Assembly: GCF_900103715.1 (NCBI RefSeq)
Contig: NZ_FNHL01000003.1
Span: 248,001 to 312,000, forward strand
Origin: Halogranum gelatinilyticum
GTDB lineage: Archaea > Halobacteriota > Halobacteria > Halobacteriales > Haloferacaceae
Direction: 5' to 3'
DNA: 64,000 bases
Notes under the pieces: model-generated
Databases searched by the model: none
Told to the model about the DNA's origin: nothing
The model's input: the letters and a program-made list of their open reading frames with translations, nothing else
In this document: positions 47,352 to 50,786 of the stretch, piece after piece
Position numbering within the stretch: position 1 is the first letter of the stretch
Layout: each line of letters begins with the position of its first letter
Translations under genes and position numbers: made by a program

Positions 47352-49988
47352 ATGGACTTTACCAGGCGAAACCTCATGGCGACGTCACTCGCAGCCACGC
47401 TCGGAGCCAGCGTGGCTGGAGTGGCCAGCGCGGACGAAGTAGCGGAGACGAACACACCCGGCGCGCCGAGCGTCAGGGGGTCGATGAAGCGGTTCTCGAC
47501 GACGGCGTTCGGTGCCGAGGCCACAGGCCCGTTCGTCTTCGCGGACGGCACCCCGCTCTACAGCCTCCAGCACCCGAGCCGGGAGAACCTCGCACCCTTC
47601 AACCGAGCCGGTATCGGCTACTTCAGCGGCTTCCAGTTCGACCTCGACGGCAACAACGACGACTTCGAGGAGATCCCCGTCCCGGTGACCGAATCCGAGC
47701 AACGACAGGTCCGCGCCGGCAACGGCAGCTACGTCCTCCTCGCACAGGAGGAAGACGAGATCAACGACGGTACCGAACGGCTCGGTGTCTCCCAGACGCC
47801 GGATGGCACCGACATCACGCAGGAGAACTTCGCGGGCACGCAGTACGGTAACGCGGGCTACAACCCCGACTGCAACCAGTTCGTCGCCACCGACGACGCG
47901 GGCACCGAGGGCTATCTCTTCACCAACTGGGAGAACAGCCCCGGCAACGTCTCGCGGATCCCCCTCAGCCAAGACGACGACGGCGAGTGGAGCGCGGACC
48001 TCGACAACGCCATCAACCTCGCGAACACCGACGCGCTCCGCGAACTCGGCGGCACGCGCATCAACTGTTACGGCGACCTCAGCCCGTGGAACACGATGAT
48101 CTCCTCCGAGGAGAACTACGCCCACCCGCGCGTCTCGCTGACGGCCACCGTCAGTGACGTCGTGGAGGCTGGCTCGGGGAAGGGACTGATCGGTGCCTGC
48201 CAGTTCTGGAACCGGCCGAACCCGACGGAGATCACGTCCGCGCTCTCGGAATACTACGGCGACGAGTCGTGGTATCCGCAGGGTGCGTTCGCACTCGACG
48301 GCGTCGAGTTCCTCGCGTACTATCTCGGCGCGGACCCGGTCGACCAGAACGGCGGTAACTCGACGTACCCCATCGGTGACGTCTATCCGAACCCCTACCG
48401 CTACGGCTACCAGGTCGACTTCCGCGACGCCGCGGCCGACGAGCCGACGCCCATCAAATACTACGTCATGGGCCGCGCCTCGTGGGAGGCGCCCGACGTC
48501 CAGAGCGACATGAAGACCGTCTACGGCTGTTCGGACGGCGACAGCAAGGGTATCTACAAGTTCGTCGCCGACGAGGAGATTCCGAGCTACGAGGACCCGA
48601 TGGCCGTCGCCGGGACGCTCTACGCCCCGAAGATCACGAACGACGAGGCGAGCGAGCGCAACTCCCCCGCCGACGTCTCGCTCGACGTGGAGTGGATCGA
48701 ACTCGGCCACGCGAGCAACGCCGAGTGCGAGGAGTGGATCGCCGCGTACGACGACGTCACCCAGACGGACTATCTGGAGACACACGCCGAGACCGACTGG
48801 CGAGAGGACCGCGCGGCAGCACTCGAAGAGGCCGACCGCGCCGTCGTCGAAAACGGCAACCAGAATTACATCACGAACGAGGAGATCGTCGAGTGGGCCG
48901 AGCAGTACGCCGAGGAGGGGCCCGACGGCGTCGACGAGGAACTCCGCAAGATCCCGTTCCTCGAAACCCGCGCCGCGGCCAAGGAAGTCGGTGCCACCAT
49001 CGAGTTCAACAAGGCCGAGGGTGTCGACAGCATGGACGGTGCCGGTCCCGGCGACTTCGTCTACTTCGGTATCTCGGAGTTCAACGACGACCTCGCGAAC
49101 GACACGGGCGACATCCAGATGGACCGCGTCGACGGCGGCGTCGTCTACCGCGCGGAACTCGAACCCGATTACAACGTCTCGACGCTCGAACCGGTCATCG
49201 TCGGTCCCGACTTCACCGACCCGCCGGAGGACGCCGACGACGCGCTCCGCAACATCGACAATCTGTACGTGATGGACGACGGCCGCGTCCTCTGCTGTGA
49301 GGACGGCTTCGGCGGCCCGGCCCGCTCGTATCCCAACGACGGCGTCTACGTCTACCAGCCGAACGTGCTCGTCGACGTCGACTCCCTCGCCGTCGGCCAG
49401 GGGTCGACCGGGACGGCCGACCTCTACGCCTCGTCGCTCCCGTCGGGCTTCTCGGGCGCGCAGGTGACGGTCACCGTCTCGGACCCCGAGGTCGCGAGCA
49501 TCACCGGCGTCACCTTCCCCGACGACCTCGCGCTCACGCAGGGCACTGTCGCCGACGACGGGTCGTCGGCCACGCTGCGCTTCTCCGACGCCAGCAAGCA
49601 GGTCCAGCCCGGCGCGAGCAGAGCCCGCCTGGCGACGCTCGAAGTCGCGGCCGAGAGCATGGGGACGGCCGACCTCGACGTCGAGATCGAGCGGATGGAC
49701 GACGAGAGCGGCGACCCGCTCGACGCCGAGGCACGCTTCGGCGTCTTCGTGGGCGGCCCGCGGGGACCACCGGCGGTCGGCGACGGCGAGAAGCCGACCG
49801 ACCCCGACGACGACGGGCTCTACGAGGACGTCAACGGCAACGGTCGACTCGACTACAACGACATCGTCCTGCTGTTCCGCCACTTCGACAGCGACGCGGT
49901 GCGGCTGAACAGCGCGGCCTACGACTTCAACGAGAACGGCCAGCTCGACTTCGACGACCTCGCGACGCTCTTCGAGGAGATCAACTGA
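47352..49988 (+). CDS. Tat-exported DUF839/PhoX-type phosphatase-like protein with cohesin-like and dockerin-like C-terminus
   Basis: This 878-residue protein starts MDFTRRNLMATSLAATLGASVAGVASA, a Tat signal. Residues about 50-660 match DUF839/PhoX-type beta-propeller phosphatases (FTNWENSPGNVSRIPL, SPWNTMISSEENYAHPR, YGCSDGDSKGIYKF), which act on phosphoesters using calcium and iron. A cohesin-like beta domain follows (about 675-800, LAVGQGSTGTADLY...ASITGVTFPDD). The last 60 residues hold two EF-hand-like dockerin loops: DVNGNGRLDYND and DFNENGQLDFDD. The next gene encodes a membrane-anchored cohesin-like protein. The Tat signal and dockerin motifs are seen; a surface assembly is inferred. 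Confidence 0.85.
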   Translation: MDFTRRNLMATSLAATLGASVAGVASADEVAETNTPGAPSVRGSMKRFSTTAFGAEATGPFVFADGTPLYSLQHPSRENLAPFNRAGIGYFSGFQFDLDGNNDDFEEIPVPVTESEQRQVRAGNGSYVLLAQEEDEINDGTERLGVSQTPDGTDITQENFAGTQYGNAGYNPDCNQFVATDDAGTEGYLFTNWENSPGNVSRIPLSQDDDGEWSADLDNAINLANTDALRELGGTRINCYGDLSPWNTMISSEENYAHPRVSLTATVSDVVEAGSGKGLIGACQFWNRPNPTEITSALSEYYGDESWYPQGAFALDGVEFLAYYLGADPVDQNGGNSTYPIGDVYPNPYRYGYQVDFRDAAADEPTPIKYYVMGRASWEAPDVQSDMKTVYGCSDGDSKGIYKFVADEEIPSYEDPMAVAGTLYAPKITNDEASERNSPADVSLDVEWIELGHASNAECEEWIAAYDDVTQTDYLETHAETDWREDRAAALEEADRAVVENGNQNYITNEEIVEWAEQYAEEGPDGVDEELRKIPFLETRAAAKEVGATIEFNKAEGVDSMDGAGPGDFVYFGISEFNDDLANDTGDIQMDRVDGGVVYRAELEPDYNVSTLEPVIVGPDFTDPPEDADDALRNIDNLYVMDDGRVLCCEDGFGGPARSYPNDGVYVYQPNVLVDVDSLAVGQGSTGTADLYASSLPSGFSGAQVTVTVSDPEVASITGVTFPDDLALTQGTVADDGSSATLRFSDASKQVQPGASRARLATLEVAAESMGTADLDVEIERMDDESGDPLDAEARFGVFVGGPRGPPAVGDGEKPTDPDDDGLYEDVNGNGRLDYNDIVLLFRHFDSDAVRLNSAAYDFNENGQLDFDDLATLFEEIN

Positions 49989-50057
49989 GACGGCCGCTTG
50001 CCGCTGCACTGGCCTCACTACCCCACCACCCCAGTTTATCCAGATACCACAGACCCT

Positions 50058-50786
50058 ATGATTCGACCGATTCAGACCCTCACAACGAGAATTACTCGCG
50101 ATTCGACTCGTACTGCGGCAGCCACACTCGTCGTTGCCGCGGCGGTAACCACGTTCGCCCTCCTCGGGGCAGTGACGGCGACCGGCACCACTGCAGCGCA
50201 GACTGACGACCCGACCGTCCGCCTCGTCGGCGGCGACGTGACGGCGAGCGAGACGGCGACGTTCGACGTCGTGCTAACGTCGGCTCCCGACGGCCTCTCC
50301 GGCTACTATCTCCGGCTCTCGCTCGACGGGACCGACGTCGCCCGCATCGACGGCGCGGCCTACCCCGACGCGTTCAGCATGACGAACGAGCCGACGACGG
50401 AGGGAGACGGCGGGACGCTCCTGCTCGAAGCCGCCGACCTGGAGGACTCGGTCCAGGCTGGCGCGGCCGACGTGCCGCTCGCGACCGTCGAACTCACTGG
50501 TGTCGCTCCGGGGGAAGCGCGGGTCAGCGTCGAGCCGGTCCAGTTCGACACCGACAGCGGCGACAGGTTCCAGCCAGCGACCCAGTCCGACGTCGTGACG
50601 GTCGCCGCCGAAGATTCCGAGGACGGTGCTGCCGGAGCCACCGAGGACGCGAGCGACGGAAGCGACTCGCTCGGCGACGGTGCGACGGGCGCGGCGGGCA
50701 GTGTCGGCGGCGTGCCGACGGTCGTTCTCGTCGGTGCGGCGGCCGCCCTCCTCGCTGGCGGCGTCCTGCTCGGCCGTCGGCTCTAG
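50058..50786 (+). CDS. membrane-anchored cohesin-like surface protein
   Basis: This 242-residue protein has an N-terminal hydrophobic export segment (about 20-45, TLVVAAAVTTFALLGAVTATG) and a cohesin-like beta domain (about 50-185, PTVRLVGGDVTASETATFDVVLTSAP, GYYLRLSLDG, ATVELTGVAPGEARV). An acidic Gly/Ser/Ala-rich linker and a C-terminal membrane helix (VPTVVLVGAAAALLAGGVLLG) ending RRL follow. It is positioned 69 bases after the dockerin-bearing DUF839 protein gene, so it probably tethers it to the envelope. A CAGTTTATCC element about 22 bases upstream gives it its own possible promoter. There is no catalytic motif. Confidence 0.82.
   Translation: MIRPIQTLTTRITRDSTRTAAATLVVAAAVTTFALLGAVTATGTTAAQTDDPTVRLVGGDVTASETATFDVVLTSAPDGLSGYYLRLSLDGTDVARIDGAAYPDAFSMTNEPTTEGDGGTLLLEAADLEDSVQAGAADVPLATVELTGVAPGEARVSVEPVQFDTDSGDRFQPATQSDVVTVAAEDSEDGAAGATEDASDGSDSLGDGATGAAGSVGGVPTVVLVGAAAALLAGGVLLGRRL

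Follow-up and report, generated by a model that had tools for sequence, protein, structure and literature searches.

A candidate cohesin-dockerin cassette for anchoring a PhoX-like enzyme to the haloarchaeal cell surface

Cohesin-dockerin pairs have previously been described in archaea. In Archaeoglobus fulgidus, residues 432-506 of ORF2375 form the dockerin and residues 29-162 of ORF2376 the cohesin; binding of both modules has been proven with calcium, and the pair docks cargo on cell surfaces (PMC9705933). For ANME archaea, dockerin and cohesin domains have been discussed as well, with cargo consisting mainly of ABC-transporter binding proteins and S-layer proteins (PMC9012536). In case of haloarchaea, glycosidases and lyases carrying type I dockerins have been described, in which the dockerin is regarded as substrate-binding and no cohesin is named (PMC10963439, PMC13260240). 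A search of the open-licence literature gave no report of cohesins in haloarchaea or of dockerin-tagged phosphatases, and literature on haloarchaeal PhoX/DUF839 yielded nothing relevant.

In a 64,000-nucleotide stretch of Halogranum gelatinilyticum DNA (the whole stretch analysed here, referred to as the window), a gene for a PhoX-like protein with internal cohesin and C-terminal dockerin is followed by a gene for a membrane cohesin, referred to as the anchor. With a probability of about 0.82, we regard both genes as a surface-anchoring cassette, in which the PhoX-like enzyme would be held non-covalently on the membrane cohesin via its dockerin. Binding in this pair, its calcium dependence, phosphatase activity and benefit are those parts of this reading that we infer. 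The individual features are as follows:

47352..49988, + strand: PhoX-cohesin-dockerin gene, 878 aa, with the Tat signal TRRNLM at its start
47469..49361, + strand: PhoX-like catalytic region; PF05787 matches residues 220 to 680, and conservation sets in at about residue 40
approximately 49359..49763, + strand: internal cohesin-fold domain (Coh1), AlphaFold2 mean pLDDT 91
49794..49985, + strand: type I dockerin, approximately residues 815-878, with loops DPDDDGLYED, DVNGNGRLDYND and DFNENGQLDFDD
49989..50057, + strand: intergenic gap of 69 bp; in relatives, the two genes are likewise adjacent, separated by small gaps or overlapping by 4 bases
50058..50786, + strand: membrane cohesin (anchor) gene, 242 aa, without Pfam or NCBIfam match
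50058..50198, + strand: signal sequence at the N-terminus of the anchor, lacking a Tat twin-arginine motif and of Sec type by inspection
50205..50612, + strand: cohesin domain of the anchor
50613..50708, + strand: stalk of the anchor, rich in D, S, G and T (from sequence)
50709..50783, + strand: C-terminal membrane helix of the anchor with RR end (from sequence)

A preliminary description of this locus had proposed a Tat-exported protein of the DUF839/PhoX type, which is borne out by the TRRNLM signal and a PF05787 (PhoX) match with E=4.6e-21 (76 bits versus a cut-off of 24) in a Pfam search. Besides this match, the protein has in common with PhoX alkaline phosphatases that its family profile finds the solved PhoX 3ZWU (E=1.1e-10) and that its NC...EEN motif, including C239, aligns with 3ZWU, the mapping being limited to that motif. 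Judged by its sequence, the 878-aa protein is thus PhoX-like and would presumably act as a phosphatase, whereas many other haloarchaeal PhoX proteins lack the C-terminal cohesin-dockerin extension. PhoX, dockerin and EF-hand are the only Pfam families matched in the window's two proteins.

At the C-terminus, the two EF-hand-like dockerin loops described earlier are indeed present, beginning at residues 826 and 858, while a third acidic loop (DPDDDGLYED) ahead of them opens the dockerin. The proposed profile search against PF00404 (Dockerin_1) gave 23.1 bits with a cut-off of 22.9, a near-cut-off score for a segment to which relatives align throughout. Of the window's 344 stop-to-stop frames with 100 codons or more, only the 878-aa frame contains two such loops spaced 20-45 residues apart, and none of 20,000 shuffles of the protein's tail does, which argues against a chance pattern. 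The module contains the F-hand calcium loop in duplicate, with helices after the loops, modelled at 168-176, 187-190 and 200-210 (AlphaFold2 model numbering).

The cohesin-like domain suspected inside the phosphatase-like protein was confirmed at the level of fold, as the Coh1 model reaches VIA Z-scores of 16.6 to 6KGC and 16.3 to 2XDH, both solved cohesins. When Coh1 and dockerin were modelled as one chain, AlphaFold2 gave a mean pLDDT of 91 and a pTM of 0.72, with helices at the dockerin positions. The anchor, in turn, was modelled as a dockerin-anchor fusion obtained by in-frame read-through of the single TGA stop, using a 55-row alignment. Its cohesin domain is predicted with a pLDDT of 95-98; the 50 PDB matches in the Foldseek listing, with a best E of 5e-9, all belong to cohesins or cohesin-like modules, and VIA-align yielded a Z-score of 16.1 to 2JH2 and of 15.0 to 2XDH, an archaeal cohesin. 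Hence, the second gene does encode a cohesin-like beta domain with a C-terminal membrane helix, the cohesin part being confined to 50205-50612, and the structure searches place this domain inside the cohesin fold. In the fused model, however, the dockerin attains a pLDDT of only about 72 beside the anchor cohesin, versus about 92 beside Coh1. Sequence profiles recognize these domains far less readily: Pfam and NCBIfam gave no cohesin match for either cohesin domain of the window's proteins, and a cohesin profile searched against the PDB by sequence reached a PDB cohesin at a weak E of about 1. The cohesin model PF00963, proposed earlier as a check, gave no match for the two window domains and matched four of 18 aligned relatives (best E 4.8e-5). 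A PGF-CTERM signal (TIGR04126), which implies processing by archaeosortase, terminates the anchor of several species but is absent from that of the window.

For a comparison across haloarchaea, profiles for PhoX, cohesin and dockerin were run against 80 named PhoX loci. PhoX-cohesin-dockerin genes occur in 39 of these loci, and a cohesin-membrane gene on the same strand follows immediately downstream in 33 of the 39 (absent in six), as compared to none of the 42 dockerin-less PhoX genes. Fisher's test on this association, run with 44 dockerin-less genes where the tree counts 42, a difference of no consequence for the result, gave approximately 2e-17. As this count ignores relatedness, a PhoX tree was built, on whose well-supported branches the paired label needs at least seven changes and the lone label two; dockerin and anchor have thus been acquired or lost as one cassette, and repeatedly so. 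An order-wide search gave a second set, which partly overlaps the 80 named loci and agrees with the first. In the pooled sets, 83 of 97 dockerin-bearing PhoX copies have an adjacent anchor, and in four of the 14 cases without one, the copy is the first of a tandem duplicate with a common anchor gene. Tandem PhoX-cohesin-dockerin genes followed by one anchor gene were observed in L123, L162, L164 and L172, the anchor of L162 being split in two frames. A further locus (L046:4536-10736, G028:C1) contains a PhoX-cohesin-dockerin gene with the anchor broken into two frames and a second PhoX-cohesin copy in a degraded neighbourhood, which looks like cassette decay or an assembly error. In three other loci (L126:5932-8364, L131:5980-8301, L138:6001-8418), dockerin-less PhoX proteins have a stalk and a hydrophobic C-terminal helix of their own, apparently an alternative anchoring of the same enzyme. 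A link to the phosphate regulon by gene neighbourhood was also considered. Among the loci examined, phoU/pst genes lie beside PhoX in three only (L052, lone; L100 and L128, dockerin-less) and in no paired locus, and no such cluster occurs within the window; hence, the neighbourhoods offer no general support for this link.

Dockerins without an adjacent anchor provide natural controls. Ten lone PhoX copies, most of them in one clade, retain the dockerin without anchor, and no family cohesin beyond the PhoX-internal one was found in any of six lone PhoX-dockerin genomes (G002, G020, G373, G199, G184, G355). Dockerin columns were compared between 71 paired and nine lone proteins, searching for positions conserved to at least 95% in the paired but mostly changed in the lone ones, which left N830, R832 and Y835, i.e., loop positions 5, 7 and 10. 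Y835 is retained in 71/71 paired versus 1/9 lone dockerins and R832 in 70/71 versus 3/9, while N830 is replaced by D in lone dockerins and the calcium-loop acids mostly remain. Loop position 10 is among the classical specificity positions of type I dockerins, as in the C. thermocellum system. As D at position 830 could still bind calcium, the fold may survive in these proteins with recognition being lost. At equal PhoX identity, dockerin similarity between lone and paired proteins is approximately 10-16 points below that among paired ones; for the internal cohesin, the same comparison is lower by 5-15 points. The idea that decay in lone proteins affects the dockerin only is therefore weakened, and the relaxed module may comprise Coh1 and dockerin together. 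Halogranum amylolyticum (L061) represents a second, recent loss of the anchor, in which both R832 and Y835 are retained. Another candidate position, Tyr at position 17 of dockerin segment 2, was discarded as diagnostic, since it fitted the first set but failed in several paired genomes.

Dockerins are not restricted to PhoX. The window's genome contains a second, unrelated pair (G000:C2, approximately 847-850 kb; L008:3356-6288), in which a Tat-exported calcineurin-like phosphoesterase with dockerin (PF00149, PF00404), carrying no internal cohesin, directly precedes a cohesin protein whose long stalk is PT-rich and whose PGF-CTERM-like tail scores just under the cut-off. Separately, a third cohesin-dockerin locus of this genome (L009:163-13537, G000:C2, approximately 582-596 kb), whose dockerin subtype differs, comprises a cluster of large, cohesin-bearing surface proteins along with one protein that combines cohesin and dockerin and a dockerin protein of 1464 aa. 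In other haloarchaea, the PhoX-type cohesin-dockerin tail also occurs on PhoD phosphatases, a 5'-nucleotidase and a GDPD; anchor genes are likewise located downstream of dockerin enzymes other than PhoX, for instance the GDPD in L042 and proteins of 1131-1512 aa in L203-L206. In L195-L202 (PhoD; 5'-nucleotidase in L199), no anchor gene is present within the approximately 2 kb examined, but the recognition residues are kept in these genes, and the PhoX-linked anchor is encoded elsewhere in six of the seven PhoD genomes found, whereas G319 yielded no anchor. These two observations point to a multi-enzyme surface complex for phosphate scavenging, in which PhoX, PhoD, 5'-nucleotidase and GDPD might share one membrane cohesin and possibly be chained via internal cohesins, an idea that we put forward tentatively, with the odds somewhat against it. 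Apart from phosphatases, a haloarchaeal protein of 1032 aa that contains five cohesins and one dockerin (L207:1605-10093, G361:C1) was observed next to two Tat-exported dockerin proteins reading like GH5 cellulases and a 230-aa cohesin protein; from its sequence, it looks like a true cellulosome-type scaffoldin.

As a different explanation for the pair in the window, the dockerin might mainly bind Coh1 of PhoX itself, in cis or head-to-tail, so that the membrane cohesin would just cap or nucleate a chain. The true cohesin fold of Coh1 and the confident single-chain model fit this explanation, as do the near-constant co-occurrence of Coh1 and dockerin in haloarchaeal PhoX loci and the faster divergence of Coh1, too, in lone lineages. 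Yet, the recognition residues decay in proteins that have Coh1 but no membrane cohesin, Coh1 is present in Haloarcula pellucida (L075) although the dockerin is absent, and the enzyme of the second pair manages without an internal cohesin; we therefore consider self-assembly as the main function unlikely. Less probable still is a dockerin serving as calcium-stabilised or substrate-binding module without any cohesin partner. The two papers on haloarchaeal glycosidases and lyases consider a part in substrate binding likely (PMC10963439, PMC13260240) and lone dockerins do persist, but this would explain neither the adjacent anchor gene nor why anchor-less lineages have lost recognition residues while mostly keeping the calcium-loop acids. 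Similarly improbable is that the second gene encodes an unrelated beta-sandwich surface protein which merely resides in the same operon. While its lack of Pfam or NCBIfam recognition and the marginal profile hit on a PDB cohesin would be compatible with this, its domain has the cohesin fold, and the gene is located immediately behind PhoX genes with a dockerin, never behind those without, and follows other dockerin enzymes, too.

The anchoring cassette, in contrast, is supported by the dockerin score above the Pfam cut-off together with the cohesin folds of both domains, by the anchor adjoining, among PhoX genes, only those with a dockerin, by the joint changes of dockerin and anchor on the PhoX tree, by the loss of R832 and Y835 in lone genomes lacking an anchor, by another, unrelated pair of phosphoesterase-dockerin and cohesin-anchor genes in the window's genome and by the proven binding of the A. 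fulgidus adjacent-gene pair (PMC9705933). The lower dockerin confidence beside the anchor and the ten lone dockerins count against it. As initially suggested, a phosphatase would thus be tethered to the envelope, a reading well supported by this comparative evidence. According to this model, the PhoX-like phosphatase would fold in the cytoplasm and be exported by Tat, while the cohesin anchor would be exported separately, probably via Sec, and retained in the membrane by its C-terminal helix, a role that a PGF-CTERM tail would take in some relatives. Outside the cell, the calcium-loaded C-terminal dockerin would dock on the anchor cohesin and thereby keep the enzyme at the envelope, where phosphate would be released near its uptake.

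Haloarchaeal dockerins would thereby gain a likely partner and role, as opposed to the substrate-binding view of recent papers; the blindness of Pfam to the anchor cohesin suggests why this partner has been overlooked. More generally, the cassette points to non-covalent fixing of Tat-exported enzymes on the archaeal surface, and with lineages of decayed docking residues and missing anchor as natural controls, the idea is directly testable.

Since adjacent-gene cohesin-dockerin binding has already been proven in A. fulgidus, the connector chemistry is known; new here are the haloarchaeal anchor family and the phosphatase cargo. Both systems are archaeal and noncellulosomal, with a C-terminal dockerin in one ORF and an N-terminal cohesin in the consecutive one, and both Halogranum cohesin folds match 2XDH with Z-scores of 15-16, the anchor cohesin at approximately 14% identity. 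The haloarchaeal system differs from the A. fulgidus pair in its cargo, a PhoX phosphatase exported by Tat, in the membrane anchoring of the cohesin, and in its wide distribution with repeated gains or losses. In ANME archaea, too, surface proteins carry dockerins on a variety of cargo, no partner being assigned there (PMC9012536), whereas the haloarchaeal cargo consists of phosphoesterases with the partner encoded in the next gene. With the bacterial cellulosome, finally, the pair shares the type I cohesin-dockerin connector and the positioning of an enzyme at the surface via an anchored cohesin, but the anchor has a single cohesin instead of a multi-cohesin scaffoldin and an archaeal membrane helix, and no cellulase, glycoside hydrolase or carbohydrate-binding module was detected in the window's pair by Pfam search. 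Of the cellulosome-style logic claimed initially, the connector modules hold, but not the whole, given the one-cohesin anchor and the phosphatase cargo. The pair resembles the anchoring end of a cellulosome without being one, and the cellulosome connector would probably be used here for phosphate scavenging rather than for cellulose digestion.
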